From Planctomycetota bacterium (GTDB lineage Bacteria; Planctomycetota; MHYJ01; JACPRB01): a stretch of DNA of 42,629 bases. Shown in pieces: positions 7,877-24,940 of the stretch. The notes under the pieces are model-generated. The model worked only from the letters and a program-made list of their open reading frames with translations. It made no database searches and had not been told where the DNA came from. A program made the position numbers and the translations under genes. The stretch covers positions 1-42,629 of the forward strand of contig JACPRB010000327.1 of NCBI GenBank assembly GCA_016190155.1. Direction: 5' to 3'. The first letter of the stretch is position 1, and the number at the start of each line of letters is the position of its first letter.

Positions 7877-8611
7877 CTACTGGACGATCCGCCCTTCCCG
7901 CCGGCGCGCGTCCAACCATTCCCGAAAGAGAATCTCCGAGACCTCCGCGCGCAAGCCGTCGTCCAACACCGCCCGACGCACTTCCTCCACTCGGACGATC
8001 TCCCAACCCTCGTCGGTCCCGAACGGTCCCACGACGTCGCCCGGCGCCGCCGTGAAGACCCGCGCCTCCTCCGTCTCGTCCAGGTCGCGCGGACGCACCC
8101 ATCCTCCCAACTCACGATCCAGCGAATGCCGGCGCGCCAGCGCCCCGAAATCCTGACCGTCGTCCGTCACCTGGCTGAGGAGCTCCGCCGCCACTTCCCT
8201 TTTGTCGACCACGATCCGCGAGATGAGCGCCTCGTCGAAGTCATGGCGGTGCTCGACGAAGTACTTCTCCACCGCCGCCGGCGACGCCACGCCAGCGACG
8301 AGCTTCGCCTCCAGCGCGCGCCCCTCGAGCTCTCCCTCCAAATCCTCCAAAGTCAGCCCGTTCTCCGCCAGCCATCGCTCCGTGTCCTCCACGCGATCCA
8401 GGCCGCGCTCCGCCCGAAACGAATCGACCGCCCGCTGCAGCTCCTCATCCGAGAGGGATAGGCCGCGCTGCTCCGCCGCTTCCAGAACCAGCGCGCGCCG
8501 AACGGCGCCTTCGACGAGCGCGGCGTACGCCCCATCGACCTTCAGTCGCACCAAGACTTCCACAAAGGACACGGCACGGCCGTTGACCGTGATGATGGGG
8601 CTGTCGCGCAT
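7877..8611 (-). CDS. Parvulin-type peptidyl-prolyl isomerase-like protein
   Basis: A 244-residue protein. The start ATG 8611 follows AAGGAG at nine bases; the reading frame extends further upstream but only through repeat sequence. It begins with IITVNGRAVSFVEVLVRLKV without a signal peptide. Residues about 15-125 form an all-helical SurA/PrsA N-domain-like region (LSLSDEELQRAVDSFR, WLAENGLTLEDLEGELEGR). Residues about 135-225 resemble a PpiC/parvulin domain (DFGALARRHSLDRELGGWV, AAPGDVVGPFGTDEGWEIVRV). Proteins of this kind commonly accompany C39-peptidase ABC exporters and HlyD adaptors in peptide-secretion loci. It is divergent from the exporter gene with only 76 bp between starts. It may hold or present the small peptides encoded downstream; that role is inferred. 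Confidence 0.8.
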   Translation of the reverse strand: MRDSPIITVNGRAVSFVEVLVRLKVDGAYAALVEGAVRRALVLEAAEQRGLSLSDEELQRAVDSFRAERGLDRVEDTERWLAENGLTLEDLEGELEGRALEAKLVAGVASPAAVEKYFVEHRHDFDEALISRIVVDKREVAAELLSQVTDDGQDFGALARRHSLDRELGGWVRPRDLDETEEARVFTAAPGDVVGPFGTDEGWEIVRVEEVRRAVLDDGLRAEVSEILFREWLDARRREGRIVQ

Positions 8612-8687: not shown

Positions 8688-11600
8688 ATGCTTACCGCGA
8701 TGCGCCAGCTACGCCAATTCCTCCGAGAGCTGGCCCCCTTCTCGCCGCTGTCGGACGAAGACGTGCAAACACTCGCGACATCGGCCGACCTCATCCAGGT
8801 CCCCTTCGGCGAGAAGATCTTCTCCGAAGGAGACGCGGCCGACGGAATGTACGTCGTCTATTCCGGCCGCGTGAAAATCGTCGCGAGCGACCGCGGAGGC
8901 AACGAAATCGTCCTGGCGGCGCTATCCGCGGGCGAACACTTCGGCGAACAGGCGGTGCTGACCGGCGCGCCGCGATCCGCCAAGGCGCGAGCGGCGGACG
9001 ATTCGGCGCTCGTACGCATCGACGCGGCCGCCCTGCGACGGGTGCTCGCGGGAAATCCCGGCCTGCAGCGCTACTTCCAGGAGCACCTCAACCACCTGGG
9101 CGTACACAACTTCCTGAAGCTCTTGACGGGACTCGGCAGCGCGCTCACGCCCGCCGACGTCCGCGCCATGCTCGAGGAACTCGAGATCGAGGCGCACGCC
9201 GCGGGCGAGACGGTCCTGCGTCAAGGCGACCCGCCGGGCGCGTTCCACATCGTCCGCGAAGGACGGCTGCGGACGGTGCGAACGAGGACCGACGGTCAGG
9301 AAGAGCCGCCCGGAGCGATCCTCGAGGGCGAGTTCTTCGGACACCTCTCGATCCTGGATAACCAGACGCAGCCCTGCTCGGTGGTCGCGGCGACCGCCTG
9401 CACGCTGTTCCGACTCAAGCGCGAGCGGTTCGTCGAGCTGCTGCAGAAGTCCCAGCGCATGAAGACGTTCTTCGAGGAGCGCGCGTCCAAATTCCGGTCC
9501 AGCCGCGGCGAACCGCCGCCTCCCGCACCGGCACCGACGGCGATGCGCGCGCCGATTCCGTCCGAGGAGGCGCCCACCCCGCCCCGCGAACGGCGCCACG
9601 GCCGCTTCGTCCCGTTGCAGCAGCACGACGAAACGGATTGCGGAGCGGCGTGCCTGGCGATGATCAGCGGGTTTCACGGCGTGCGCCTGAGCCTGGCCCG
9701 CGCGCGCGACCTGTGCAACGTCTCCGTCGAGGGCTCCTCGCTCAACAGCATCGCGGAAGCGGCGGAAGGCCTCGGATTCCGCACGCGCGGAATCGCCGCC
9801 TCGTACGACTCGATGACGACCGCGGAGCTGCCGGCCATCGTCCACTGGGACGGCTTCCACTTCGTGGTGCTCGTGGACGCGGACGCGCGACGCGCGACGA
9901 TCGCCGATCCCGCCCTCGGCGTCCTCACGAAGATGCCGCGCGAGGAATTCGAGCGCCACTGGACCGGGCGAGCGCTGCTGCTGTCGCCGACGGGATCGCT
10001 GGCCAATGTGCGGCCGGCGCAGACGAGCCTGGCGCGCTTCCGGCCGCTCCTGTCGCCGCACGCGTGGCTCCTCGTCGAGATCCTGATGGCGTCGCTCTTC
10101 CTCGACCTCTTCGGCCTGGCGCCCGCGTTCTTCACGCAGGTGATCGTGGATCGCGTCGTCGTCCATCAGAACAAGAGTCTGCTGGCGCTCATCGCGGCCG
10201 GCATGCTCGTCATCACCGTCGCGGGCATCCTGATGTCGGCGCTGCGGGCGTATCTGGTGACGCACCTGAGCGCGAAGATCGATCTCAAGATGCTCATCCA
10301 CTTCTGTGACCACGTCCTCAGTCTGCCGATGCGCTTCTTCGCGCTGCGCAAGACGGGCGACCTGCTGACGCGATTCCACGAGAACTCGCGCCTACGGGAG
10401 ATGATGACGGACGCGACGATCAGCGTGCTGCTCGACACGGTGCTCATCGGGGTCTACCTCGGCGTGATGTTCTTCTACAACGCCAAGCTCGCCCTGGCGA
10501 CGCTGGCGTTCCTGCCCCTCTTCGCGCTGCTGACGCTGGCCTTCACGCCGGCCTTCCGCGCGCTCAACCGCAAGGCCTTCGCCGCGAAGGGCGAGCAGGA
10601 CTCCTGCCTCGTGGAAACCGTGACCGGCGTGGAAACGGTCAAGGCGCTGGCCATCGAGCGGCCGATGCGCTGGAAGTGGGAGAACCTCTTCGTCAAGTAC
10701 CTCAACCTCGACTTCCGCAGCAACATGACCGCGGTGGCGTACTCGTCGCTCAGCCGCCTGCTCAAATCGCTCAGCTCCGTCGTGCTGCTGTGGTACGGGG
10801 CGACGCTCGTCATCGAGGGACAGATGAGCATCGGCCAGCTCATGGCGTTCAACGCGCTCATCGGCAGCGTCCTCATGCCGATCGCGAGCCTCGTAGGCCT
10901 CTGGGAGGACCTGCAACAGATGCTCGTCTCCGTCGAGCGCCTGAACGAAATCCTCGACACGGATACCGAGGCGGCGAAGATGCGCGGCGCGCCCGTCCCG
11001 CTGGCGGAGGTGCAGGGTCACGTGAAGCTCGATCGCGTGTTCTTCCGCTACGGCGGCTCGGATTCGCCGTGGGTGCTCAAGAGCGTCTCGCTGGAGGTGC
11101 ACCCCGGCGAGACGGCGGCCCTCGTGGGCCGCAGCGGCTGCGGGAAAACGACCTTGGCGAAGCTCCTCTTGCGGCTGCACGACCCGACGGAGGGGCGGAT
11201 CCTCCTGGACGGACAGGACCTGGCCACGGTGAGCCCGCACGCGCTGCGCCGGCAGGTCGGCGTCGTGCTGCAGGAGAGCGTGCTCTTCAGCGGGACGATC
11301 CGCGAGAACATCGCGCTGGGAGAGGCGGACCCGGACATCAAGCGCGTCATCGAGGCGGCGCGGCTGGCCAACGCGCACGATTTCATCAGCGCGCTGCCGA
11401 TGAGCTACGACACGCCCGTCGGCGAACGCGGCGTCACGCTGTCGGGCGGCCAGCGGCAGCGGCTCTGCCTGGCGCGCATGATCTACCGCGATCCGCGACT
11501 CGTGATCCTCGACGAGGCCACGAGCGCGCTTGACACGGAGAGCGAGCGGGCGATCCAGCGGAGCCTGGGGACGCTGCTGAAAGGACGCACGGCGCTCGTC

Positions 11601-11747
11601 ATCGCGCACCGGATCAGCACGGTGCGCCACGCGGACCGGATCTTCGTGCTGGACAACGGCGCGCTGGCGGAGGAAGGGACGCACGTCGAGCTGATGTCGA
11701 AGAAAGGACTGTACAGCTACCTGGCGGGGCAACAGCTGGATCTATGA
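8688..11747 (+). CDS. C39-peptidase ABC exporter with two cyclic-nucleotide-binding domains
   Basis: A 1019-residue protein that should cleave double-glycine leaders and export the released peptide across the inner membrane. Order of domains: cNMP-binding (CAP_ED-like) at about 12-125 (FSEGDAADGMYVVYSGRVKI), a second at about 143-255 (RQGDPPGAFHIVREGRL), a Pro-rich linker, peptidase C39 at about 303-432, six TM segments at about 445-745, then the ATPase. The peptidase triad is visible: Cys318 in DETDCGAAC, His391 in WDGFHFVV and Asp407 in IADPA. The ATPase has Walker A GRSGCGKT (814-821), signature LSGGQRQ (918-924), Walker B LVILDEATS with Asp942, and the switch VIAHR. All key residues are intact. 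ATG 8688 (or in-frame ATG 8700) lacks a clear ribosome site. It overlaps the HlyD gene by four bases (ATGA), so the two are translationally coupled. Confidence 0.93.
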   Translation: MLTAMRQLRQFLRELAPFSPLSDEDVQTLATSADLIQVPFGEKIFSEGDAADGMYVVYSGRVKIVASDRGGNEIVLAALSAGEHFGEQAVLTGAPRSAKARAADDSALVRIDAAALRRVLAGNPGLQRYFQEHLNHLGVHNFLKLLTGLGSALTPADVRAMLEELEIEAHAAGETVLRQGDPPGAFHIVREGRLRTVRTRTDGQEEPPGAILEGEFFGHLSILDNQTQPCSVVAATACTLFRLKRERFVELLQKSQRMKTFFEERASKFRSSRGEPPPPAPAPTAMRAPIPSEEAPTPPRERRHGRFVPLQQHDETDCGAACLAMISGFHGVRLSLARARDLCNVSVEGSSLNSIAEAAEGLGFRTRGIAASYDSMTTAELPAIVHWDGFHFVVLVDADARRATIADPALGVLTKMPREEFERHWTGRALLLSPTGSLANVRPAQTSLARFRPLLSPHAWLLVEILMASLFLDLFGLAPAFFTQVIVDRVVVHQNKSLLALIAAGMLVITVAGILMSALRAYLVTHLSAKIDLKMLIHFCDHVLSLPMRFFALRKTGDLLTRFHENSRLREMMTDATISVLLDTVLIGVYLGVMFFYNAKLALATLAFLPLFALLTLAFTPAFRALNRKAFAAKGEQDSCLVETVTGVETVKALAIERPMRWKWENLFVKYLNLDFRSNMTAVAYSSLSRLLKSLSSVVLLWYGATLVIEGQMSIGQLMAFNALIGSVLMPIASLVGLWEDLQQMLVSVERLNEILDTDTEAAKMRGAPVPLAEVQGHVKLDRVFFRYGGSDSPWVLKSVSLEVHPGETAALVGRSGCGKTTLAKLLLRLHDPTEGRILLDGQDLATVSPHALRRQVGVVLQESVLFSGTIRENIALGEADPDIKRVIEAARLANAHDFISALPMSYDTPVGERGVTLSGGQRQRLCLARMIYRDPRLVILDEATSALDTESERAIQRSLGTLLKGRTALVIAHRISTVRHADRIFVLDNGALAEEGTHVELMSKKGLYSYLAGQQLDL

Positions 11748-13816
11748 CGAACCCGGGCGGATACCTGATCGGACAAATCGCGCTGCGCGAGGGGCTCATC
11801 GCGCAGGCGCAGCTGGACGAGTGCCTGCGCGAGCAGGCGGCGACGGATCCGCCGCGCCCGCTGGGTCAGCTGCTCGTCGAGAAAGGGCGTCTCACGGCGG
11901 AGCAGCTGCGGCGAGTGATCGAGATCCGATCGAAGCAGCTCGAGGAGATCGACGCGGCGACGCGGATGAGCCGGCAGGACTCCATCTTCGGCTCCGTCGC
12001 GGTGTCGCTGGGGTTCGTGTCGCCGCAGCGGCTCAACGAGTGCCTTCGCGAGCAGGAGCTGCTGGCGCGCAAGGGAGTCAACAAGCGGTTGGGCCGGATC
12101 ATGCACGAGCGCGGCTATCTGACGTCCGAGAAGATCCGGCAGGTGCTGGAGATGCAGCGCAAGCGGGTGCTCTTCTGCCCCATCTGCGAGCGGCTGTTCA
12201 ACGTGACGGGCGGAACGGAGCGGCCGGAGACGTGCGTCGGGTGCGGCGGGCCGCTCATCGAGGGGCATTCGTATGTGGCCCTGGAGCCGGAGGAGGTCGT
12301 CTCGCCGGACGCCGCTCCCGAGAGACCGCCGGTCAAGCGCGAGGCGGAGGTCGTGCAGGAGCGCGTCGGAGAGGCGAGCCTGCCGGTGACGCGCGAGGCG
12401 AGCGAGGTCTTCGGACGCGTGCCGCCGGTCATCGCCCGGTCGCTGGTCTACATCGTGCTCGGGACGTTCGCCGTCGGGCTGGTTTGGGCGTGGCTGGGAA
12501 AGGTGGACGTCGTCGTGGAGGCGGACGCGATCCTCGTGCCGCGCGGGTACGTGCAGAAGGTGACGGCGCCGCTGGCGGGAGAGGTCGCGGAAGAGCCGGT
12601 GATCGCCGACGGCGCGCGCGTGGCGAAGGGCGACCGGCTGCTCGTGCTCAAGTCGCGTGACGCGCTCGTCGAAGAGGCGGAGCGACGCCGATTGGAGGAG
12701 GAACTCCGAGAGTCGGAGGGGGCGCTGGAGCGCTTCCGTCAGAAGAAGGAATCGGTGGACCAGAAGCGGAAGCTGCTGGAAGTGCGGGTCGCCGGGCTGG
12801 AGACGCTCAACGCGACCACGCGAGAGTATCTGACGGGGCGGCTGGCGGAGGAGGCGAAGCTGGCGGTGGAGCGCGCGCGGAACGAAGTCGAGAGGGCCAC
12901 GGGGGCGCTGGCGTCGGCCCGCGAGGATCTGTCGTTCAAGGAGCGCGCGGCGGAGCGCGCGGAGCGGGAGCACGAGGCGAACCGGAAGCTGCTGGAGCAG
13001 AATCTGATCTCGGAGCAGGCCTTTCGGGAGAGCGAGGGCCGGTTGGAGGCGGCCGGGGCGGCGGCGGCCTCGGCGCGCGGCGAGGTCGCGAAGCTGGAGC
13101 GGGAGGCGCAGGGATTGCAGACGGAGGTTCGACAGAAGGAGCTCGAGTTCGAGCGCCGGAAGGCGGACCAGGAGAAGGAGATACTGGAGAACGAGGCGTC
13201 GATCGGGTCTCTGCGGGCGGAGAAGCTGCAGGCGGAGATCGAGTTGCGCGCGGAAGAGGAGGGGTTGGAAGCGAAGCGGCGCGACGCGCAGGCAAGGCTG
13301 GCGAGGGCGCGGCTGATCGCGGAGAGCCGGTTCGTCTCTCACGAGAATCTGGGGGACGGCCGCATCGCGATCCTGGCGCCGGCGGACGGGGTGCTCACGA
13401 GCGCGGCGGTTCGACGGCGGGGAGAGATCGTCGCGGCGGGCCAGATGCTGGCGACGATCGCGCCGCTGGAAGCGCCGGTCATAGCGGAGCTTCGCGTGCA
13501 GAATCGGGACATCGGTTTTGTGCGGGTGGCGCAGGAAGTGAAGCTGCTTTACGAAGCGTTCCCGTATCAGGAGTACGGCGTCCAGAGAGGAAGAGTGCGG
13601 GCGGTGGCGCCGGACGCGGTGATGGATGCGCAGCTGGGGCCGGTCTACACGGTTGAGGTGGATCTGGTGGATCGGTCGATCCGCCTCGGGGGCGAGGAGC
13701 GGGTCTTGGGGTATGGCTTGAAGGCGCGGGCGCAGATCGTGACGGAGCGCAAGAGCCTCCTGTCCTATCTGCTGAAGCCGTTCGCGGACTTGGCGGACCA
13801 GGCGACGGCGCGCTGA
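11744..13816 (+). CDS. HlyD-family adaptor with GspE-N-like repeats and zinc ribbon
   Basis: A 690-residue protein and the expected periplasmic adaptor of the preceding exporter (four-base ATGA overlap). Two GspE/MshE N-terminal-like helical repeats come first (about 5-70 and 82-140: IGQIALREGLIAQAQLDECL, RLGRIMHERGYLTSEKIRQV). A zinc ribbon follows (CPIC 145-148, CVGC 164-167), then a charged linker. A single transmembrane helix at about 229-250 leads to the periplasmic HlyD barrel (VEADAILVPRGYVQKVTAPL). A coiled coil follows from about 300 to 530, then the second half of the barrel (ILAPADGVLTSAAVRRRGE) and a C-terminal beta-domain. Ordinary HlyD proteins are about 400-480 residues and begin just before the TM helix. 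The cytoplasmic extension is the odd part and may link the exporter to a cytoplasmic partner or signal. No TolC-like gene is in the window. Confidence 0.88.
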   Translation: MTNPGGYLIGQIALREGLIAQAQLDECLREQAATDPPRPLGQLLVEKGRLTAEQLRRVIEIRSKQLEEIDAATRMSRQDSIFGSVAVSLGFVSPQRLNECLREQELLARKGVNKRLGRIMHERGYLTSEKIRQVLEMQRKRVLFCPICERLFNVTGGTERPETCVGCGGPLIEGHSYVALEPEEVVSPDAAPERPPVKREAEVVQERVGEASLPVTREASEVFGRVPPVIARSLVYIVLGTFAVGLVWAWLGKVDVVVEADAILVPRGYVQKVTAPLAGEVAEEPVIADGARVAKGDRLLVLKSRDALVEEAERRRLEEELRESEGALERFRQKKESVDQKRKLLEVRVAGLETLNATTREYLTGRLAEEAKLAVERARNEVERATGALASAREDLSFKERAAERAEREHEANRKLLEQNLISEQAFRESEGRLEAAGAAAASARGEVAKLEREAQGLQTEVRQKELEFERRKADQEKEILENEASIGSLRAEKLQAEIELRAEEEGLEAKRRDAQARLARARLIAESRFVSHENLGDGRIAILAPADGVLTSAAVRRRGEIVAAGQMLATIAPLEAPVIAELRVQNRDIGFVRVAQEVKLLYEAFPYQEYGVQRGRVRAVAPDAVMDAQLGPVYTVEVDLVDRSIRLGGEERVLGYGLKARAQIVTERKSLLSYLLKPFADLADQATAR

Positions 13817-13828
13817 GCGCCGGGAGTA

Positions 13829-14252
13829 GGCGTTCACCCGTTCATCGGTTTATCCGTTCACTCGTTCTAGCGTTCTTCCGTTCAGGACACCCCGAAACGC
13901 TCACCGGCAGCGGATCGCACGCGTTAGGCAGAACTGAGCGGCGGAGGACAGCAATGGGGACGTTCGAACGGAAGAACGGGCGAACGGGGCAACCGCTGAA
14001 CGATTACGACTCTGGGACGGGACTCTTGAGCGGATGAACGGGTGAACGTTCGAACGGATGAACGGTTGCCGTCGGGGTAACCGTTCACCGGTTCACCCGT
14101 TCATCCGTTCGCCCGTTCCTGGCTTCTGGTCCGTGCGGGCATCCGTTCTCCGCTGGCCGCACACGACCTTTTGCAAGGGCCTTCGAGCGCAGGAACGGGT
14201 AAACGCGAGAACCGGTGAACGGAAGAACGAATGAACGGCTGAACGGTTACCC
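13829..14252. repeat. GAACGG-type degenerate repeat region in both orientations
   Basis: Four blocks of 7-8-bp units alternate in orientation: TTC-type at about 13829-13877, GAAC-type at 13965-14068, TTC-type at 14082-14116, GAAC-type at 14190-14252. Typical units are ATGAACGG, GTGAACGG and their complements. Adjacent blocks can pair into long hairpins. The 558-bp space 13817-14374 between the adaptor and the first small peptide gene contains no other gene that I can support. The units are not separated by unique spacers, so this is not a CRISPR array. Confidence 0.8.
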
Positions 14253-14374: not shown

Positions 14375-14539
14375 GTGTCAGACAAGGACGAACTTCGCGT
14401 GGATGCGAAGGAACGGCGCCATGGGCGCACCTCCCCGCGCAAGCTCAGCCAGGCGACGAGGAAGCTGTCGCGCGAGGAGCGGAAGAAGACGATGGGCGGC
14501 GGGGGGAGGTCGGCCCACCGATGGGCGGATGCCGGGTAG
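14375..14539 (+). CDS. Double-glycine leader peptide 1 (short core)
   Basis: A 54-residue ORF starting at GTG 14375 with GGAG six bases upstream. A 42-residue, very basic leader ends in LSREERKKTMGG, which fits the classical double-glycine leader consensus LSxxELxxIxGG (Leu at -12, Ser at -11, Glu at -8, Thr at -4, Gly-Gly at -2/-1). Cleavage by the C39 peptidase would release the 12-residue core GGRSAHRWADAG; cleavage one or two glycines later is also possible. It is the first of five tandem ORFs of this design and is closest to peptide 2 (shared LSR, T-x-GG, GG-x-SA and terminal DAG). Function is unknown: antimicrobial or signalling peptide are both open. Confidence 0.75.
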   Translation: MSDKDELRVDAKERRHGRTSPRKLSQATRKLSREERKKTMGGGGRSAHRWADAG

Positions 14540-14562
14540 ATCGGCGTCAGGGAGGACCAAGA

Positions 14563-14739
14563 ATGGACCCCAAGAACGAAATCAAGTGTCGTGAGGACGG
14601 CAAGAGTGGCGCGCTCCGCCGGCACACGCGTGTGGCCAAGCTCAAGAGGCGGCCGAGCACGCTCTCGCGAAAGCAGCAGGCGAGAACGACGGGGGGCTGC
14701 GGGGGGCTGTCGGCATATTTCGCCGAGGATGCGGGATAG
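14563..14739 (+). CDS. Double-glycine leader peptide 2 (short core)
   Basis: A 58-residue ORF starting at ATG 14563 behind GGGAGGACCAAGA. The 45-residue basic leader ends in LSRKQQARTTGG, with Leu -12, Ser -11 and Thr -4 as in peptide 1. The predicted core is CGGLSAYFAEDAG (13 residues) with one cysteine at its first position; another cysteine is in the leader (residue 9). Homology with peptide 1 over the last 25 residues is evident by eye. It begins 23 bp after the stop of peptide 1. The single N-terminal Cys of the core could form a dimer, a thioether or a lipid linkage, but no modifying enzyme is encoded nearby. Confidence 0.75.
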   Translation: MDPKNEIKCREDGKSGALRRHTRVAKLKRRPSTLSRKQQARTTGGCGGLSAYFAEDAG

Positions 14740-14753
14740 GAAGAGGTGCTGGC

Positions 14754-14942
14754 ATGGGACGGACACGATTGTCGCCGGTGTCGAAGGCCAAACCGATGCG
14801 TTCGGCCGTGCTGAAGGGGACTCGCGGCGGATTCGCCGGAGTGACGGGGCTGGCCACGAGCCTGGGACCCGTGACGCAATCCGGGTCTGGACGGGCACAG
14901 AAAGGGCGCCGCGGGAATTCCGGAAACGCCGTCTATGGGTAG
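14754..14942 (+). CDS. Double-glycine leader peptide 3 (long Gly/Arg core)
   Basis: A 62-residue ORF starting at ATG 14754 behind AGAGGTGCTGGC, 14 bp after peptide 2. The 26-residue leader ends in KPMRSAVLKGTRGG (hydrophobic at -12 and -7, Thr at -4, Gly-Gly). The core has 36 residues and is rich in Gly, Ser and Arg (starts FAGVTGLATSLGP, ends GNAVYG). The leader aligns with those of peptides 4 and 5 through RTR, KP and the Gly-Gly site. The 3' end overlaps the start of peptide 4. Confidence 0.75.
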   Translation: MGRTRLSPVSKAKPMRSAVLKGTRGGFAGVTGLATSLGPVTQSGSGRAQKGRRGNSGNAVYG

Positions 14943-15144
14943 CGGAGGGGACATCAGGCGCAGGACACGCATTTCAAAGGTCGTCTCCACGCCGAAGCCG
15001 TTGTCCGGGAACGCCATGACGCGCGTTCGCGGAGGCAACGCCGGGTTCGACACGCCCGCGAACATCCAGCGGGAGCGCCTGAGGCCCCAACCGGAGCGGC
15101 GACAGCGCGGGGCCGAGCGAGGGGACCGCACGGTGTACGGGTAA
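14935..15144 (+). CDS. Double-glycine leader peptide 4 (long Arg-rich core)
   Basis: A 69-residue ORF. ATG 14935 overlaps the TAG of peptide 3 (ATGGGTAG), which favours coupled translation. A strong GGAGGGG lies just inside the ORF (14945-14951) and precedes an ATC codon at 14953, where alignment with peptide 3 would place the true N-terminus, so the start is uncertain. The leader ends in KPLSGNAMTRVRGG (Leu -12, Ser -11, Met -7, Val -4, Gly-Gly). The predicted 35-residue core is strongly basic (NAGFDTPANIQRERL at its start) and ends DRTVYG, like the AVYG end of peptide 3. Confidence 0.7.
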   Translation: MGSGGDIRRRTRISKVVSTPKPLSGNAMTRVRGGNAGFDTPANIQRERLRPQPERRQRGAERGDRTVYG

Positions 15145-15156
15145 GGGAGCGACATT

Positions 15157-15336
15157 ATGGCACGAATCCAGATATCGACGTCCCAGGGCGGAGGCAAACC
15201 GCTGAGTCGCAGATCGATGAAGCGCGTCCACGGCGGCCAAGGGATCCTTCCCTCTCCGGGCGCGGCCATACAAAGGCCGATCGGACCCGCGCCAAGAGCG
15301 GGTCGCGGACGAATGAGCCGGGGAGTGCTGGGGTAA
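15157..15336 (+). CDS. Double-glycine leader peptide 5 (long Pro/Arg core)
   Basis: A 59-residue ORF starting at ATG 15157 behind AAGGGAGCGACATT, 12 bp after peptide 4. The 27-residue leader ends in KPLSRRSMKRVHGG, almost the same pattern as peptide 4 (KPLS, Met -7, Val -4, Gly-Gly). The 32-residue core begins QGILPSPGAAIQRPIGP and ends in MSRGVLG; it is rich in Pro, Gly and Arg and has no cysteine. Short Pro/Arg-rich cores resemble intracellularly acting antimicrobial peptides in composition, which is only suggestive. It is the last member of the tandem array, and a hairpin follows 45 bp later. Confidence 0.75.
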   Translation: MARIQISTSQGGGKPLSRRSMKRVHGGQGILPSPGAAIQRPIGPAPRAGRGRMSRGVLG

Positions 15337-15381
15337 AGGCCTGTCCGACAATAAGTGCTCAACTCCGGAGAAGAACAGACT

Positions 15382-15448
15382 GAACCGCCAAATCACCAAA
15401 GCGCCAGATTGAGCCCCTATACGCTTCCTTTTGGCGTTTTGGCGGTTC
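15382..15448. repeat. Inverted repeat of CGCCAAA type
   Basis: GAACCGCCAAA (15382-15392) pairs perfectly with TTTGGCGGTTC (15438-15448); further CGCCA/GGCG units lie between them. It is 45 bp after the last peptide gene and could end that transcript, but it lacks a T-run after the stem. It is a fourth heptamer-like inverted repeat family in this window. Confidence 0.6.
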
Positions 15449-15560
15449 TTCCCTTCCTCCATGTGATTGCATCAGTCGTCTCCAGGCCGGCGCCGCAACA
15501 GAGGCACGTGACGCCGGTACGCCGGTTCGGCCGCGGGCAGTCCGCACAGAACCGTCCCAT
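15417..15560 (-). CDS. Possible 47-residue zinc-ribbon ORF
   Basis: ATG 15560 to TAG 15417. It contains FCADC and CLCC, spaced like a small zinc ribbon (C-x2-C-x10-C-x2-C), followed by a basic tail that runs into the inverted repeat. There is no good ribosome site. It might be a remnant of a zinc-ribbon protein or a chance frame; the similar ribbon at the end of the polyferredoxin gene is notable. Confidence 0.25.
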   Translation of the reverse strand: MGRFCADCPRPNRRTGVTCLCCGAGLETTDAITWRKGRTAKTPKGSV

Positions 15561-15570
15561 AGACTCTGCA

Positions 15571-15591
15571 CCTGGCTATTGCATAACCAGG
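15571..15591. promoter_or_regulatory. 21-bp palindrome overlapping the ferredoxin promoter
   Basis: CCTGGCTAT (15571-15579), TGC, ATAACCAGG (15583-15591): nine-base arms with one mismatch. It overlaps the -35 hexamer of the promoter at 15579-15607, the position expected for a repressor operator. The regulator is unknown. Confidence 0.45.
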
Positions 15592-15607
15592 TTACGTTGT
15601 GTATGTT
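15579..15607 (+). promoter_or_regulatory. Sigma-70-type promoter of the ferredoxin gene
   Basis: TTGCAT (15579-15584), a 17-bp spacer and TATGTT (15602-15607), 31 bp before the ATG at 15638. Confidence 0.45.
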
Positions 15608-15637
15608 TTCTGACCCAGACACAGCGGGAGACAAATC

Positions 15638-15934
15638 ATGGCTATGCGAATTGACGCCGACCAGTGCATCGACTGCGGGGCCTGCGTGGAACCTTGCCCG
15701 AACCAAGCCATCCGGCGCGGAGGCGAGGAGTATACGCTTAAGAACCAGACCTATCCGGCGTTGTCGGACAAGTTCTACGTCATCCACCAGCTGTGCACGC
15801 AGTGCGTCGGGTATTACGACGAGCCGCAGTGCGTCAACGCCTGTCCCGTTGACTGCATCACCGCGGACGCCGCGCACGAAGAGAGCCACGAGCAGCTCGA
15901 AGCGAAGGCCAAGAATCTGAAGCCGCAGAAGTAG
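15638..15934 (+). CDS. 2[4Fe-4S] ferredoxin, YfhL/Alvin type
   Basis: A 98-residue cytoplasmic electron carrier starting at ATG 15638 behind GCGGGAGACAAATC. The first cluster motif is CIDCGACVEPCP. The second is CTQCVGYYDEPQCVNACP, which contains the extra residues between the second and third cysteines typical of Allochromatium-type/YfhL ferredoxins. The charged C-terminal helix (HEESHEQLEAKAK) is also family-like. It sits upstream of mobB and facing the respiratory operon, so it may feed low-potential electrons to that system, but this kind of ferredoxin is widespread and its partner here is unknown. Confidence 0.9.
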   Translation: MAMRIDADQCIDCGACVEPCPNQAIRRGGEEYTLKNQTYPALSDKFYVIHQLCTQCVGYYDEPQCVNACPVDCITADAAHEESHEQLEAKAKNLKPQK

Positions 15935-16097
15935 TCGGCGCCGCGCCGAAAAGTCGTTTTCAGGGCGATGTCGAAGAGCGGCCGCCTGCCGGGGTGATTT
16001 CACGGGGCCTGGTACGTACTTTCCCCGTCGCTTCGTCGGCCCCGCGGCCTCGATCTTCACTGGATGCGCCGCGGGTGCTCCTGCTACACTGCGAACC

Positions 16098-16634
16098 ATG
16101 CCTCCCCACATCGTGTCCGTCGTGGGCGCGCAGAACTCCGGAAAGACGCGCCTGGTCATGCGGCTCGTCCGCCACTTCACGGGGATGGGATTGCGCGTGG
16201 GAACGATCAAGCACGCCTCTCATGGATTCGACGTGCCCGGCAAGGACTCTCACGTCCACTTCACCGCGGGCGCCATCGCCACCGCGCTCGTGGGGCCGGA
16301 TCGCCTCGCTCTGTTCCGGCGGCAGCGGGAGCCGACCCTGAAGCGGCTCGTACGGACGCACTTCCGTGACGTCGATCTCGTGATCGTCGAGGGTTTTCGT
16401 CGTTGGCGAGTCCCGCGCATTGAAGTCTATCGGCGCGCGGTTTCCCCGCGGCCCCTGGGCATGCCCGTCGACGCCTTCGTCAGCGACGACATGCCGGACA
16501 CGAAGGTGCCGACGTACGCCACCCGCGACATCGCCAGGTTGGCGCGGTTCATTTTGCGACTGGGCCCTCGTGGCGCCTCGCGGTCGCGTGCTCGCTCGTC
16601 GCACCGGCGGGCCGGCAGCGCGGACACCGCGTGA
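16098..16634 (+). CDS. mobB: Molybdopterin-guanine dinucleotide biosynthesis protein MobB
   Basis: A 178-residue GTP-binding protein that assists attachment of GMP to molybdopterin to make the MGD cofactor. The P-loop is VVGAQNSGKTRL, followed by RVGTIKHASHGFDVPGKDS (the typical MobB TIKH-x-H-x-x-D-x-P-G-K-D-S signature) and VDLVIVEGFR (Walker B-like, with the VEG of the family). The final 25 residues are basic and unlike the family core. Its 3' end overlaps the convergent polyferredoxin gene by 86 bp. Its presence beside a bis-MGD-type oxidoreductase makes functional sense. Confidence 0.92.
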   Translation: MPPHIVSVVGAQNSGKTRLVMRLVRHFTGMGLRVGTIKHASHGFDVPGKDSHVHFTAGAIATALVGPDRLALFRRQREPTLKRLVRTHFRDVDLVIVEGFRRWRVPRIEVYRRAVSPRPLGMPVDAFVSDDMPDTKVPTYATRDIARLARFILRLGPRGASRSRARSSHRRAGSADTA

Positions 16635-17640
16635 TCCGGCCTGCGCCGTGAAATGGAACTCCGCACTCGGAGCAACTGCGGCGATCCAGCGTGGCCACGA
16701 TCACCGGTTGCGACGCCGACAAGACGCTGAGGTCGTTCTCGCGAGAGACGCGCGCGGCCCGCATATAGCAGGCATCGGAACAAGCGCCGCAATCGATGCA
16801 GAGGGCCGGGTCGAAACGGAGAACCACCTTGCCCGCGGACGGCTCTTCGCGCGCGATGGCGCCCGGCGCGCATACGTGCTCGCAGACATTGCAACCGACG
16901 CAATTCGGGCCGATCTCCAGCCGGCCCAACGGCAATTCGCCCGCAGGCGCCGAGCGCAGCCTCACGCCGCCTTGGCGCACGGCGGCAGCCAGGCGGTTTC
17001 TCCTTCCCGTGCCGTGGCTCCCGGACGGCGCGGCGATCCCCAGGATCCTCCGGAAGAAAGCGCGGCGCTCCACGTTCAGTTCACCGTCGTCCGTGGCAGG
17101 AATATGGATCACGGAGATCCGCTCCGAATGGTGGCCGGCCGCCTCCAGGATCCGCCGGACGATGCGCATGGTGCGGCCGAAATATCGACGCACCTGCCGC
17201 AGACCAGCGCACGTCCGGCAATCTCCCAGCACGATGCGTAAGCGGCCCGTTCCGCGAAGCACCGCGGACACGAGGACGGCTTCGTCCACACGCGCGGCGC
17301 ACGACAGCCGGATCTGGCCCGACGTCTGGCCGCCCGATCGCTCACACGCCAGGACAGTTTCTGTTCCCGGCGCGTTCTCCAGCCGGCAACGAACGGCCTT
17401 CTCGATGTCGGACGCGGCCGACGATCGAAGAACAACCGCTCCGGTGGGGCAGGCCTCCTCGCACGCCCCGCAGGAATCGCACTTCGCATCGACGCTCCAC
17501 CGGCCCCCTTGTCTCTGCAACGCGTCGATCGGACACGCCTCGATGCAGGCGCGGCACGTCGCGCGCACGAAGAGCTCGGCCGTGCAAACGGAAGGGTCCA
17601 GCTGCAACGATCGGCCAAGCGGCTCTACATGCGGGCGCAT
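16549..17640 (-). CDS. Polyferredoxin with C-terminal zinc ribbon
   Basis: A 363-residue iron-sulfur protein. ATG 17640 is favoured (GAGGAG immediately upstream); GTG 17655 is possible. Cluster motifs in order: TCRACIEACP, CDSCGACEEACP, a middle domain with CRTCAGL and a RRAFFRRILG segment, then CVGCNVCEHVCA and CIDCGACSDACY. The C-terminus is a rubredoxin-like zinc ribbon (CSECGVPFHG, CPRC). Four [4Fe-4S] sites are likely. There is no signal peptide, so it is cytoplasmic. It is the last gene of the molybdoenzyme operon and overlaps the chaperone gene by 16 bp. Possible roles are electron transfer or maturation of the enzyme; the exact role is not known. Confidence 0.75.
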   Translation of the reverse strand: MRPHVEPLGRSLQLDPSVCTAELFVRATCRACIEACPIDALQRQGGRWSVDAKCDSCGACEEACPTGAVVLRSSAASDIEKAVRCRLENAPGTETVLACERSGGQTSGQIRLSCAARVDEAVLVSAVLRGTGRLRIVLGDCRTCAGLRQVRRYFGRTMRIVRRILEAAGHHSERISVIHIPATDDGELNVERRAFFRRILGIAAPSGSHGTGRRNRLAAAVRQGGVRLRSAPAGELPLGRLEIGPNCVGCNVCEHVCAPGAIAREEPSAGKVVLRFDPALCIDCGACSDACYMRAARVSRENDLSVLSASQPVIVATLDRRSCSECGVPFHGAGRITRCPRCRPAGATSEHATARRHEGPVAK

Positions 17641-18323
17641 AGCTCCTCGGGGCACGGCAACCCGACCTCACGGCGGATCCACCCCTCGGTCAGCGCCGCC
17701 AGAGCCCGAAAGAAGCCCGTTTCCGCCTTCTGCTGGATCCGACCGGCCAACACAGGGAGCCACTGGACCAGATGATCCCGCAGAAACAAACACTCCAGCG
17801 CGGTCGCCTTGAGCGCGGAATCCCCCGCTCCCGAGCGCAGGTACTCCGCCTCCCGCCGGGAGAGATATTCCATGCAGGCCAACTCCAGCCCGACGTAATC
17901 CGGCAGCTCAAGGTACTTGCGCGATATTCCCAGCCCCACGCGATCGTAAAAGGCGATGACCTGTTGCGTGCTCGGACCGAACGTGCGAGGCGAGACTTTC
18001 CCGTTGGCCTCGATAGGCGCGTCGCGATGGACCGACTCGTACGGCGCGACGTACTTGGGTCCCGGAACCATGAACAGGTCATTGAAGTCTTGGCAGAGGA
18101 CCTCGTCCGACTGCGCGGTGCCCTGTTGGGACAGATCGTCGAGGAACTTCGCGAACTCCTCCCAACCCGGTGGGATGCCCACGGGAGCGCGTTTTCGCAC
18201 GACCTCATGCCAATCCGAGATCAGCGGGCGGTGATACGCGGCCGACAGGAGGGCGTACATGTCCGCCCTCCATGAAGCGACGCCGGCGCCGTTCATGTCT
18301 TGGTTCATGAGTGCGCTCTCCAT
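17625..18323 (-). CDS. TorD/DmsD-family molybdoenzyme chaperone
   Basis: A 232-residue all-helical protein. The stop of the upstream iron-sulfur gene and this ATG overlap as TGATG; GTG 18326 and ATG 18308 are alternatives. Features of the TorD/NarJ (PF02613) family are MYALLSAAYHRPL at the start, the central LCQDFNDLFMVPGPKYVAPYESVH (E/D-F-x-x-L-F-x-x-P-x-x-x-x-x-P-Y-E-S-V) and HLVQWLPVLAGRI near the end. Such chaperones bind the TAT leader and insert the cofactor into the catalytic subunit encoded two genes upstream. Confidence 0.88.
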   Translation of the reverse strand: MESALMNQDMNGAGVASWRADMYALLSAAYHRPLISDWHEVVRKRAPVGIPPGWEEFAKFLDDLSQQGTAQSDEVLCQDFNDLFMVPGPKYVAPYESVHRDAPIEANGKVSPRTFGPSTQQVIAFYDRVGLGISRKYLELPDYVGLELACMEYLSRREAEYLRSGAGDSALKATALECLFLRDHLVQWLPVLAGRIQQKAETGFFRALAALTEGWIRREVGLPCPEELCARM

Positions 18324-18889
18324 CACATCGTGAACAGGACGGATGGCCGCGTATGATTAGCGGGCGCAAACCCGGCTGGGGCACTTTGTCCGCTCTGGCC
18401 AGAATCGAAGTTCGTGACGAAATTGAGCGCGCGACCCGCGCAGGTCGTGACACACGCCGGCTTGAGACCGGCGTCGATGCGCTGGACGCAGAACGTACAC
18501 TTTTCGACCTTCTCCGTTGTCTCGTTGAATTGCGGAGCGCCGTAGGGACAGGCCCACAGGCAGTACTTGCATCCGATGCATCGGTCGTAGTCGATGAGCA
18601 CAATGCCGTCCGCCGCGCGTTTCGATATGGCGCCGACGGGGCACGCGGGCATGCAGGCCGGGTTGGCGCAGTGGTTGCACGCGGATGTGACAAACGTCAG
18701 GGTCGGCGTGGGATAGGCTCCCGCCCACCGATACAGGACCCTGCGGTAGTTCACCGCGACCGCCCGGGCGTTGCGAACGACCAGGGGCGCGGTCTGCGGC
18801 GCCGTGTTGTTCTCCGCTTTGCACGCCACGGCGCAACCGTGGCATCCGACGCACTTCGTCAGGTCGATCGTCCATCCATACTGTGGCAT
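18323..18889 (-). CDS. Four-cluster ferredoxin subunit, DmsB/PsrB/NrfC type
   Basis: A 188-residue electron-transfer subunit of a molybdopterin oxidoreductase. Four [4Fe-4S] motifs are visible: CVGCHGCAVACK, CNHCANPACMPACP, CIGCKYCLWACP and the split CTFCVQRIDAG/CVTTC. GATE ends in a Gly/Pro-rich tail. The start at ATG 18889 lies 11 bp after the catalytic gene. It has no signal peptide of its own, as expected if it is co-exported with the TAT-signal-bearing catalytic subunit. No NrfD/PsrC-type membrane subunit accompanies it. Confidence 0.92.
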   Translation of the reverse strand: MPQYGWTIDLTKCVGCHGCAVACKAENNTAPQTAPLVVRNARAVAVNYRRVLYRWAGAYPTPTLTFVTSACNHCANPACMPACPVGAISKRAADGIVLIDYDRCIGCKYCLWACPYGAPQFNETTEKVEKCTFCVQRIDAGLKPACVTTCAGRALNFVTNFDSGQSGQSAPAGFAPANHTRPSVLFTM

Positions 18890-18900
18890 GGCGTGCCTCC

Positions 18901-21900
18901 CTAGTTCGTCACTTTCTGGACATTGACGCGCGTATCATAGAACGAACAACTGCAGCCGATCTTCTCCTGCAGGCTCACATCGCCGAGGACCGGATCCAGC
19001 CGCATGACCAAGGTCGGCTGGAGGCCCAGGGCGCGCGACGGATCCGCCGGCTGGTTGACGCCGTTGTCCTGCCAAACCTGAGAGCTCTGCTGCCAGTGGC
19101 CGAAATGGTGCGAGATGGCCACCACCCCGGGTCTCAGCCCCTCCGTTACCCAGACGTGGCCGACGATGCCCTGAGAGTTGCTCGCCGAGGTGACCCGCGC
19201 CAGATCGTAGGTGCGCAGGTTCAGCGACTGGGCGTCCGCCGAGTTGAGCTCGATGAAATTCTCCGGCTGCCAGACGGTGAGCCAGGGCAAGTTCTGCGTG
19301 CGCGCCTGCCCGTGAAGCACCTTCTTGTAGGTGATGAGTTGGAAGGGGAACGTGGCGTCCGAGATCGGATTGTCGGCGACATCCTTGATCGGCTCGTAGT
19401 GAGCCACGGCCGGATTCGTCGTCACCGGCGCGTAGGTCGTCTGCGCCCCCTCGTCGCTCGCCATGACGTCCCGCGCGAGCGCGAGCTGCTCGTAGTAAAG
19501 CTTGATCTCGTTGGCGTAGCGGTATCTCAGCTTGCCCGACGCCGGCGGCGTGACGCTCGTATCGTACTCGTACCCGGGATCCTGGAAGGCGCCGCCGCGC
19601 GCGACGATATCACTTTCGGACGTGACGGCCGGCTTTCCGGGATCGGAGGCGGACCCGATCGACGTGACCAGCTGCGTGAGCGCCGGCTTGATGTGGGCCC
19701 ATGCGTTGGCCGGAAGGAGCGGGCCGACGTTGGCGCCGCCGGTGCCCGCGCCGATCTCGTTGCTCAGGCCCAGAGCACCCATCAACCCGATCAGGATATC
19801 CTCGAGCATCTTCGTGTCGGGATAGATCGGGTTGTAGTTGTTGGCCGCATTGGGATCGAAGGCGACATCCCAGGCGGCGGAATCGAACGAGCCGACCAGC
19901 GGCTGCCGGAAAGGCGTATGTTTAGCCAATTGCATCACGTTGCCCGGGAAGGACCACTTCTCGAGGTACGTCGTGTCGGGCAGGATGTAGTCGGCGTAGG
20001 AGGACACTTCGCCCATCTGATTGTCGATCGCGACAAAGAGCGGCACCTTGCTCGTGTCCATCACCGTCGACATGAAGACGTTCTTGAGCGCCGGCGTAGA
20101 GTAGGGCAGCGCATTCCAGTAGGTGATGAGCACTTTGCAGGCGTAGGGGTACTGCCCATAGATGCTCGGGATGATCTCCTGGTAATTGCCGTGCGTGCCG
20201 TACGGAAACCAAGGCCGCGCCGCAGGATACGGATAGGCTCCGACGCCATAAGCCGTCCTCAAGCTGTCGTAGAGCGTCGTGCTGACCTTCGTGCGCTCGA
20301 TGCGCGGACCCGTGGGCAGGCCAGAGGTATTCGTACCGCTCATGGCGGTATAGGCATGGGCCCACGACCCGCCGCTCTTGGTGTTGCCGCCCTGCCAGTC
20401 GTAGTTGCCGGCCAGGGTGTTCAGCAGCATCACGCCCGTCATCGACCACAGGCCGTTCGTATGCTGGACGGTGCCCCGGTACGGGTTGGCGACCGCGCGC
20501 TTGCCCGCTGCGAAGAAGCCCGCGGCGACCGCCGTCAGTTGCGTCGCATCCACCCCCGCGATGTCGGCGTAGTATTGGACCGAGTACGGGCCGATGCTCG
20601 TGTCGTAGAGAATCTCGTAGACCGTCTTGACCTGGATCGATTCGACTCCCAATTCGCCACCCGTGAGCGTGAGCGTGCCCGGCAGGAGCTCGCCCTCCAC
20701 GGCGCCGGCCCCGATTTCCACGGGTGCGCCGCCCGACCATGCGGCGTAATTCGTGTTGAGCGACTGCGACGTCGGAAGGTAATCCTGTACCCGCAGGTAC
20801 TCGCCCACGACCGCCGACACCGGGGCGCCCGCGGAACGTCCCACGATCACCAGCCGCGCGGCGTCCGTCCACGTCGTCTCGTTGTCCACGGTGGCCGCCG
20901 CCGCGTTGCAGTTGCGCAGATATGTGGCGATGGAGCTGGAATCGATGGCCCCCTGCCCCGCCGTCGTAGGACCGTAGGTCTTGATGATGTGCGTGGCCAT
21001 GCCCAGCGCCACGGCGCCGTCCGTGCCGGGCCTCGCCGGCAGCCAGACGTTCGCCTTGGCGGCCGTGTTGGAAAACCGCGGGTCGACCACGACGAGCGTC
21101 TTGCCCGCCTTCTTGAACTCGGCGATCTTCCGCGACAGCGCCAGCATCGGGAAATTCGCTTCCAGATAGTTGGCTCCGAAGAGGACGATGTAGTCGGCCC
21201 CCATGATGTCGGGCTTGAAGTGGTTGGTGCGCCCCTTGTTGCTCGCGGTGTCCCACGTCATCAGCTCGTTGGAGACGTGGTGCGACACTTCGCAAATGCT
21301 GGTATGGTCGAGCCGGTAGTTCGCCGTGCCGTACGTGTTCTTGAAGGTGCGTTCGATGATCTCGCCGTCCGTAGACCGGCCAGGCGAGAACATCAGCGCG
21401 TTCGCGGCGCGCCCCAGGAGCGATCTGCCCGGGAACACGTCATCCACCAGACGCGAAGACGTCGGGATCAGCGCGTTGATGGCCGTGGCGATCTCGCTGA
21501 AGGCCGTCGCCCACGAAATCGTCTGCCACTTGCCGGAGCCACGCGACCCCACGCGCTTGAGCGGATGCTTGATGCGGTAGGGGTCGTACAGGACCTGCAC
21601 GCCCGCTTGCCCCTTCGGACAGAGGCGGCCCCGGGTGTTGACGGCGACGGAGGGCGCCGTAGACCAGCCCAACCGCTCGTCGTCTTCCATGTTGTTGGGG
21701 TGGTACGGATTGCCGTCGAGCTTCACGAGAACCCCCGCCGCCGGGCTGGTCGAACCCGCAGGTCCCACGATCTTGCCCATGAGACCGCAGCGCGAATGAC
21801 AGTTCTGGCATACGCTGAAGCGATAGACGATGTTCTCCCCGGCGCCCGCCGCCACCGGATCGGGGGCGTTCTCGCCGGTCGTGATGGCCTCCGCGTCCTT

Positions 21901-22014
21901 CACGGTGAAGAAAGTCGCGAAGACCGTGACCCCGGCCGTGGTGGCCGCGGACGTCTTCAGGAATTCCCGGCGGCTGACATCCGGATGATCGTCGATCGTG
22001 CTCTTGATCGTCAT
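18901..22014 (-). CDS. TAT-exported molybdopterin oxidoreductase catalytic subunit
   Basis: A 1037-residue member of the DMSO-reductase superfamily, active in the periplasm. The twin-arginine signal is SRREFLK (14-20) followed by a hydrophobic stretch. The [4Fe-4S] ligands are Cys69, Cys72, Cys76 (CQNCHSRC) and Cys132 (LCPKGQ). The likely molybdenum ligand is Cys241 in TSICEVSHH; it is a cysteine codon, not TGA. Further family patterns: VLFGANYLEANFP, LVVVDPRFSNTAAKAN and, near the end, ELNSADAQSLNLRTYDLARV. The length and the HSRCG/ICEVSHH patterns place it near the tetrathionate-, arsenate- and polysulfide-reductase side of the family rather than nitrate reductase or formate dehydrogenase. 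The substrate cannot be assigned from sequence alone. Confidence 0.9.
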   Translation of the reverse strand: MTIKSTIDDHPDVSRREFLKTSAATTAGVTVFATFFTVKDAEAITTGENAPDPVAAGAGENIVYRFSVCQNCHSRCGLMGKIVGPAGSTSPAAGVLVKLDGNPYHPNNMEDDERLGWSTAPSVAVNTRGRLCPKGQAGVQVLYDPYRIKHPLKRVGSRGSGKWQTISWATAFSEIATAINALIPTSSRLVDDVFPGRSLLGRAANALMFSPGRSTDGEIIERTFKNTYGTANYRLDHTSICEVSHHVSNELMTWDTASNKGRTNHFKPDIMGADYIVLFGANYLEANFPMLALSRKIAEFKKAGKTLVVVDPRFSNTAAKANVWLPARPGTDGAVALGMATHIIKTYGPTTAGQGAIDSSSIATYLRNCNAAAATVDNETTWTDAARLVIVGRSAGAPVSAVVGEYLRVQDYLPTSQSLNTNYAAWSGGAPVEIGAGAVEGELLPGTLTLTGGELGVESIQVKTVYEILYDTSIGPYSVQYYADIAGVDATQLTAVAAGFFAAGKRAVANPYRGTVQHTNGLWSMTGVMLLNTLAGNYDWQGGNTKSGGSWAHAYTAMSGTNTSGLPTGPRIERTKVSTTLYDSLRTAYGVGAYPYPAARPWFPYGTHGNYQEIIPSIYGQYPYACKVLITYWNALPYSTPALKNVFMSTVMDTSKVPLFVAIDNQMGEVSSYADYILPDTTYLEKWSFPGNVMQLAKHTPFRQPLVGSFDSAAWDVAFDPNAANNYNPIYPDTKMLEDILIGLMGALGLSNEIGAGTGGANVGPLLPANAWAHIKPALTQLVTSIGSASDPGKPAVTSESDIVARGGAFQDPGYEYDTSVTPPASGKLRYRYANEIKLYYEQLALARDVMASDEGAQTTYAPVTTNPAVAHYEPIKDVADNPISDATFPFQLITYKKVLHGQARTQNLPWLTVWQPENFIELNSADAQSLNLRTYDLARVTSASNSQGIVGHVWVTEGLRPGVVAISHHFGHWQQSSQVWQDNGVNQPADPSRALGLQPTLVMRLDPVLGDVSLQEKIGCSCSFYDTRVNVQKVTN

Positions 22015-22030
22015 GATCTCGTCTCCCTCG

Positions 22031-22498: not shown

Positions 22499-22512
22499 CC
22501 TCTTTCCTCCAT

Positions 22513-23535: not shown

Positions 23536-23544
23536 GCGCTCGGC

Positions 23545-24930: not shown

Positions 24931-24940
24931 CCAGAGTCAT

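Follow-up and report, generated by a model that had tools for sequence, protein, structure and literature searches.

A family of predicted double-glycine precursor peptides beside a C39 exporter in a Planctomycetota genome

The window analyzed here, a stretch of 42,629 nucleotides from a Planctomycetota bacterium (contig JACPRB010000327.1 of assembly GCA_016190155.1), carries at 14375-15336 an array of five small open reading frames (ORFs), p1 to p5, downstream of genes for a C39-peptidase ATP-binding cassette (ABC) exporter and an HlyD-type adaptor. Together with two relatives, a and b, found on a further contig of this genome, p1 to p5 form what is, judging by sequence, a real family of predicted double-glycine precursors that is undescribed in the libraries searched. 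We consider it probable that p1 to p5 are exported precursors of this kind.

Results

The first-pass annotation had described five tandem ORFs of 54, 58, 62, 69 and 59 residues, each with a Gly-Gly site and spaced by 12 to 23 bp or overlapping, and the coordinates bear this out. All five lie on the plus strand. p1 (14375-14539; GTG start, 54 residues) and p2 (14563-14739; 58 residues, contained within a longer open frame) make up subfamily A, with long leaders of 42 (net charge +7) and 45 (+10) residues, short cores of 12 (GGRSAHRWADAG) and 13 (CGGLSAYFAEDAG) residues and the ending DAG. p3 (14754-14942; 62 residues), p4 (14935-15144; 69 residues) and p5 (15157-15336; 59 residues) belong to subfamily B, where leaders of 26 (+7), 34 (+7) and 27 (+6) residues precede cores of 36 (+4), 35 (+3) and 32 (+5) residues ending in VYG, VYG and VLG. 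From p1 to p5 the gaps measure 23, 14, -8 and 12 bp, p3 and p4 overlapping by 8 bp. Purine-rich stretches resembling ribosome sites stand, by eye, upstream of p1, p2, p3 and p5, with none clear for p4, in agreement with the four sites claimed earlier. The likeness of p4 to its relatives starts only at 14956-14962, and a start codon appears, by eye, to be missing at the position homologous to the start of the other members.

A search of the window's own genome (4.49 Mb in 360 contigs, 88% complete) with p5 led to a 3.5-kb contig, C13, which carries no exporter and has two adjoining ORFs of 58 and 56 residues built on the same plan: a (MAKTKI..LSRPQMARTLGG..GGVLG) and b (MARTKV..LNRQALKRTTGG..GGVLG). 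Run against this genome, a profile of all seven members retrieved, among the best 150 of 383 first-look candidates, no sequence at E ≤ 10 but the seven it was built from; p1, itself a row of the profile, came back at E 3.5e-8. The p1-p2 pair gives z 9.0 (0/1000 shuffles), and pairs within subfamily B (p3, p4, p5, a and b) give z 3.2 to 8.5, the subfamily B cores taken by themselves reaching ≤5/1000 shuffles in 5 of 10 pairs. Both subfamilies are bridged by the leaders of p2 and p4 (z 8.4). Over their whole length, the ten pairs between subfamilies comprise p2-p4 at 0/1000 shuffles, p1-a and p2-a at 21 to 32, and seven at chance level.

All seven members have a Gly-Gly ending an N-terminal leader of 24 to 45 residues, and all end in Gly, as had been noted for the five window cores. 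In subfamily B, which comprises p3 to p5 with a and b, the 32- to 36-residue cationic core ends in V[LY]G in five of five. The leaders carry net charges of +6 to +10; subfamily B cores have +3 to +5, the p1 core +1 and the p2 core -2. Characterized exporters recognize their substrates at positions -4, -7 and -12 (PMC6959990, PMC7018657), the hydrophobic -7/-12 pair being the anchor shared in solved exporters (PMC6959990). Among the seven, -12 is hydrophobic in 7/7, -7 in 5/7 and both together in 5/7, p1 (Arg) and p2 (Gln) failing at -7; position -4 is Thr or Val throughout (T, T, T, V, V from p1 to p5). Residues -12/-11 are LS in four of the five window peptides and MR in p3, and Glu at -8 occurs in p1 only. 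The classical leader pattern attributed to the array thus stands for LS and for -4, and falls short at -7 in p1 and p2. The leaders of p3, a and b open with M-[AG]-[RK]-T-[KR], that of p5 with MARIQ; since RtgAB reads an N-terminal leader motif as well (PMC7018657), this opening may, by analogy, be a docking signal.

A leader-motif pattern matches these five ORFs and no other ORF of 40 to 130 residues on either strand of the window; when the array region was dinucleotide-shuffled 2000 times (plus strand), one ORF matched in 34 shuffles and two in none. With a second, hydrophobic-only pattern, three matches were observed, against one in 51 and two in 1 of 2000 shuffles. The leader-motif pattern is post hoc, being derived from these very peptides, and the homology is therefore the stronger evidence. 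Against Pfam, none of the seven peptides has a significant match (best, a with DUF3323, 12.5 bits, cut-off 26.6), and none has one against NCBIfam (best, p5 with a Chryseobacterium leader model, 12.5 bits, cut-off 23.5; p2 gives SecE at 12.4 bits, cut-off 97). The NHLP and N11P (Nif11-type) precursor models of the two libraries give no match up to E 1. The earlier claim of an undescribed double-glycine precursor family beside a C39 exporter is supported in this respect. Two further observations concern C13: upstream of a and b a 21-codon ORF (L003:1230-1295) stops right at Gly-Gly, as a leader lacking its core would, and an apparent frame-broken family relative lies from L003:1044 onward.

The window paralogues are too divergent for a ratio of nonsynonymous to synonymous rates (Ka/Ks), and frame-specific conservation was used in its place. 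Of the 21 possible pairs, 10 were compared in all six frames, with p4 cut to its aligned part, and the annotated frame gave the highest similarity in 10/10. One minus frame was often the runner-up (8.7 versus 7.7 for p1-p2). Identity by codon position (1/2/3) over the leader block is uninformative, at 0.44/0.535/0.435 for five members and 0.438/0.495/0.45 for seven. We rejected an antisense gene in place of the peptides: the three antisense ORFs have no Pfam match (E ≤ 0.001), and the plus frame is higher in all ten pairs.

The exporter (8688-11747, plus strand, 1019 residues) has, by Pfam, two cNMP-binding domains, a C39 peptidase at about residues 302-444, an ABC membrane domain and an ATPase domain, and so shows the long-type layout of N-terminal nucleotide-binding domain, C39 and ABC. 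Its C39 catalytic triad of C, H and D aligns with that of PCAT1 (4RY2) and is intact. There are three C39 matches in the genome, the other two lying in frames of 188 and 398 residues, too short for such an exporter; the window exporter is the only C39-ABC exporter found in the 88%-complete genome. Because no second exporter was found, the C13 peptides would rely in trans on the window exporter, provided that the unassembled part of the genome has no other. The outer-membrane channel family has nine matching stretches on five other contigs of the genome.

The HlyD-type adaptor (11744-13816, plus strand, 690 residues; HlyD_3 and DUF4388 by Pfam) bears N-terminal MshEN-like repeats and, by eye, a CxxC zinc-ribbon-like stretch, both within 11744-12268 of the window. 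The N-terminus matches NF053729 in three stretches (68.3 bits, cut-off 38) and is weakly like the PilF (E 1.8e-6) and MshE (E 0.05) structures. In the 149 genomes searched, with up to 7 candidates each, the window protein is the only one among the matches listed to join an MshEN-like domain to HlyD; the HlyD part has listed matches in six other genomes. The HlyD proteins of three of these six (G147, G143 and G091) have no MshEN-like domain in NCBIfam at E ≤ 0.01. Searching a genome contig collection with the HlyD protein returned 5 HlyD relatives, which from their titles we take to come from Pasteurellaceae and Burkholderiales-type bacteria. The terms "MshEN" and "HlyD" were not found together in the literature searched. 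HlyD fused to MshEN-like domains, of the type that binds cyclic di-GMP (c-di-GMP), is on its predicted domain content a new adaptor architecture.

Profile searches for the peptides covered 149 genomes (up to 41 first-look candidates each) and 392 genomes (up to 16 each), own genome included; weak relatives may have escaped, since only part of each genome's candidates was scored. p1 and p2 were excluded from two of the profiles (A2 and A3), and A3 used only the aligned part of p4. Among the best-scored candidates, 36 of the 149 genomes gave matches at E ≤ 0.1 and 4 of the 392 at E ≤ 0.003, own genome included; outside it the best values were 1.2e-4 (G097) and 3.5e-4 (G190). When read, these distant frames looked like chance, except L057 (G147) and perhaps L050 (G006). 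The latter (L050 1483-1707) is a 74-residue ORF (MSMPRRKAKKPLSPAAMKKTRGG...) behind a gene that is flagellin-like by eye, and its leader is like those of the window. Viral contigs, searched with relative b alone, gave no relative.

Of the 149 genomes, 9, own included, have an exporter at E ≤ 1e-120, and in three of the other eight (G147, G058 and G004) double-glycine peptides with unlike cores adjoin the homologous exporter. The first-pass annotation had looked to homologues with conserved Gly-Gly sites near related exporters; what came to light, partly bearing this out, are the C13 relatives and these three neighborhoods, the family itself and its five-ORF order appearing among the scored candidates of no other genome. 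The G147 exporter (44% identity) has two cNMP domains and C39; its contig reads outer-membrane channel, exporter, HlyD and then an 80-residue double-glycine peptide near the contig end, 3.8 kb past the exporter. This peptide first matched at E 0.049, with a profile that did not contain it, G147 being one of 36 genomes with matches of such strength; in a genome of 9 Mb, a distance of only 3.8 kb from the exporter is what sets it apart. Another G147 contig starts within a double-glycine peptide that is nearly identical, with a convergent TIGR04500-like parvulin after it, and we infer that the two contigs join. Compared from IEDL on, where the second contig begins, the two G147 peptides (L138 and L136) have leaders identical over 22 shared codons and differ over 74 codons by 12 nonsynonymous and 0 synonymous changes, all in the core. 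Under neutrality this has a chance of about 0.037, and the sparing of the leader about 0.014, for a single pair at two contig ends with linked changes ignored; it is a weak sign that the G147 cores may be under diversifying selection. In G058, a short C39 exporter beside the long one is followed after 0.25 kb by a 65-residue double-glycine peptide, and the single flanking ORF tested has no TIGR04500-like match. In G004, the exporter has beside it a precursor whose leader is of lanthipeptide type (19.2 bits, cut-off 22) and a second one that looks alike by eye.

The leaders of the G147 and G058 peptides resemble the window leaders (best z 5.1 and 4.9). A leader-only profile that included both peptides found matches in 16 of the 392 genomes at E ≤ 0.05 among the best-scored candidates, the sole strong new match being the second G147 peptide (E 1e-5). 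Eight of 13 other leader-profile loci are, by eye, C-terminal tails of YbaB; Pfam confirmed two such tails, one of them also in the leader-only search. These YbaB/EbfC tails (KSKKLSEEAMGRITGG...; L043, L048 and L121-L126) mimic a double-glycine leader almost perfectly and are a trap for motif searches.

A parvulin-like gene (Rotamase_2 by Pfam) lies at 7877-8611 on the minus strand, with 8611 the likelier start although the longest ORF starts at 8794; its product matches TIGR04500 at 122.9 bits, under the cut-off of 180. The gene set given in the first-pass annotation therefore holds for the exporter and HlyD and needs amending for the parvulin, whose gene adjoins them and runs on the other strand, away from the exporter gene. 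Between hlyD and p1 lies a dispersed repeat of about 175 bp with inverted ends (14077-14251), presumably MITE-like (resembling a miniature inverted-repeat transposable element). The genome has 39 or more further copies at 83 to 97% identity (best 40 of 317 candidates), and the one at C13:1237-1412 lies close to peptides a and b. Beyond the array, 15638-29494 holds a ferredoxin, an iron-sulfur subunit and a protein that is molybdopterin-oxidoreductase-like by eye, then a weakly cytochrome-like protein (under Pfam cut-offs), an NtrC-type regulator, a histidine kinase and a binding protein of the phosphonate type; the whole resembles a locus for a respiratory enzyme equipped with a sensor.

Discussion

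We infer the following course of cleavage, export, nucleotide control and activity. The ribosome would make a precursor of 54 to 69 residues with a basic leader, which would dock through -12, -7 and -4 on the C39 domain of the neighboring exporter. This domain would cleave after Gly-Gly, and the core would leave by a type I route formed by the exporter, HlyD and an outer-membrane channel whose gene lies elsewhere; relatives a and b would be served by the same exporter. The two cNMP domains of the exporter and the MshEN-like domains of HlyD suggest nucleotide-linked export. The cNMP domain of HetC binds guanosine tetraphosphate (ppGpp; PMC10986499), so nucleotide control of the window exporter is plausible. 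From size and charge alone, we give about even odds to an antimicrobial role of the three long cationic cores, with a and b, and on the same grounds the 12- to 13-residue cores of p1 and p2 could be signals that share the exporter. A wider scheme, in which one exporter under two nucleotide signals (cNMP and MshEN) would serve two loci and a mixture of short and long peptides, their common tail meeting a reader or a processing step, strikes us as rather unlikely.

Several observations weigh against this account. (i) Arg and Gln, both polar, at -7 make p1 and p2 the weaker candidates for exporter substrates. (ii) The spacer between hlyD and p1 measures 558 bp and includes the repeat, so that co-transcription is unsupported; no promoter-like or terminator-like sites were found. 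(iii) No immunity gene was recognized by eye beside the array, 15336-15638 included, and the outer-membrane channel family has no match on the window's contig. (iv) Among the best-scored candidates of the 149 and 392 genomes, neither the peptide family nor the five-ORF order is found outside the window's own genome. Of four genomes from the same taxonomic family, only G004 has a close exporter, peptide family and exporter both being missing from the other three, and the G004 precursors are unlike the window peptides; five more exporter-bearing genomes (G143, G128, G091, G010 and G121) show no convincing double-glycine peptide by patterns in the 10 to 18 kb around the exporter. (v) The YbaB control tail L043 scores z 5.7 against b (0/2000 shuffles), as high as the G147 and G058 leaders, and the link to those two genomes therefore rests on position, not on leader sequence. 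(vi) The MshEN motifs of HlyD are, by eye, degenerate, with the first Arg kept in 1/4 and the final Gln in 3/4.

The strongest competitor concerns the role of the peptides and leaves export untouched: they might serve cell-cell signaling only, as has been proposed for HetC-type exporters. The HetC-like layout of cNMP, C39 and ABC, the lack of a recognized immunity gene and the short cores of p1 and p2 speak for signaling. Against it, five unlike, mostly cationic paralogues in one array would fit bacteriocin arrays better, and no sensor kinase stands directly beside the array, the one found (27117-28523) lying next to the NtrC-type regulator and binding protein. We regard signaling alone as a serious possibility, somewhat short of even.

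A second alternative would make the peptides ribosomally synthesized and post-translationally modified peptides (RiPPs), with the parvulin as maturation partner. MirC, a TIGR04500 protein encoded with a C39 exporter, is required for the graspetide rosaritide (PMC13097080), and graspetide loci repeatedly contain TIGR04500 proteins (PMC8939145). The window parvulin matches this model, as do the exporter-side parvulins of G143, G128 and G091 and that of the second G147 contig (67 to 107 bits), yet all five fall under its cut-off. No graspetide synthetase was found in the genome: the best TIGR04187 match, on another contig, reaches 88 bits (cut-off 350), and 7 of 14 control genomes likewise give matches under that cut-off. 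No modifying enzyme turned up among the 40 window ORFs run against Pfam (peptides and spurious ORFs included), and the subfamily B peptides have no Cys. Enzymatic modification of the cores is on balance unlikely.

Less probable still is a relic array, whose precursors were exported formerly and are now decaying. The frame-broken relative and the 21-codon ORF of C13, the apparent lack of a start codon at the homologous position of p4 (by eye) and the dispersed repeat close to both peptide loci would suit decay; set against them, the five and two ORFs and the exporter and HlyD genes are intact, and with at least 39 other copies of the repeat its nearness may mean nothing. That p1 to p5 are no genes at all, but ORFs that arose by chance in GC-rich DNA or that shadow a gene on the other strand, might be argued from the long antisense ORFs (for example 271 residues at 14547-15362, minus strand), a third-position G+C of 0.73 in p3 and 0.67 in p5 against 0.82 to 0.90 in six neighboring genes, the frequent second place of a minus frame, the uninformative codon positions of the leader and the lack of promoter-like or terminator-like sites, and is very improbable in view of the homologues on C13, the named frame leading in every pair tested, a motif more frequent than in shuffles (though post hoc) and three antisense ORFs without a Pfam match.

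Taking p1 to p5 as probable exported precursors, the family matters in two ways. Cores of exported peptides normally vary, so that a conserved tail is unusual; here Pfam and NCBIfam models missed a precursor family whose C-terminal tail is conserved across its long members. If the MshEN-HlyD fusion binds c-di-GMP, it would open a direct test of whether peptide export is linked to a second messenger.

Comparison with known systems

The MshEN receptor of c-di-GMP consists of two 24-residue motifs, with conserved Arg and Gln, around a 5-residue spacer (PMC5013675). The window HlyD repeats share with it their match to NF053729 and, weakly, to the PilF and MshE structures, and differ in degenerate motif residues and in being joined to an HlyD adaptor. 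With the substrates of PCAT1 (CtA), ComAB, BlpAB and RtgAB (PMC6959990, PMC7018657), the window peptides have in common the Gly-Gly site and residues -4, -12 and, except in p1 and p2, -7; they differ in having Glu at -8 in p1 only and leaders of +6 to +10. The rosaritide locus (PMC13097080) likewise has a TIGR04500-type parvulin beside a C39 exporter, whereas no graspetide synthetase was found for the window and its parvulin falls under the TIGR04500 cut-off. HetC of Nostoc PCC 7120 (PMC10986499) combines a cNMP-binding domain, C39 and ABC in one chain, as does the window exporter, which differs in its two cNMP domains and its adjoining candidate substrates, whereas for HetC no substrate had been identified.

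The closest likeness is to the cyanobacterial groups I and II. Long-type C39 exporters with N-terminal CAP_ED, together with HlyD and SurA/rotamase, were described in cyanobacteria by Wang et al. in 2011 (PMC3140520), with arrays of 1 to 16 precursors, many of them missing or misannotated. The gene set, the exporter architecture and the tandem, often unannotated double-glycine precursors are the same. The window differs in precursors that match no NHLP or N11P model and have strongly basic leaders, in an HlyD with MshEN-like domains and in a divergent parvulin gene. HetP and DUF37 precursors are positively charged, opposite to the mostly negative NHLP and N11P (PMC3140520), and basic precursors are therefore not unprecedented. 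The novelty suggested by the first-pass annotation holds for the precursor family and less for its setting, exporter/HlyD/rotamase sets with precursor arrays being known since 2011 (PMC3140520). The window locus is a variant of the long-type exporter cluster; its new elements are the precursor family with the C-terminal tail that it conserves, and the MshEN-like HlyD fusion, within a kind of export locus that was already known.

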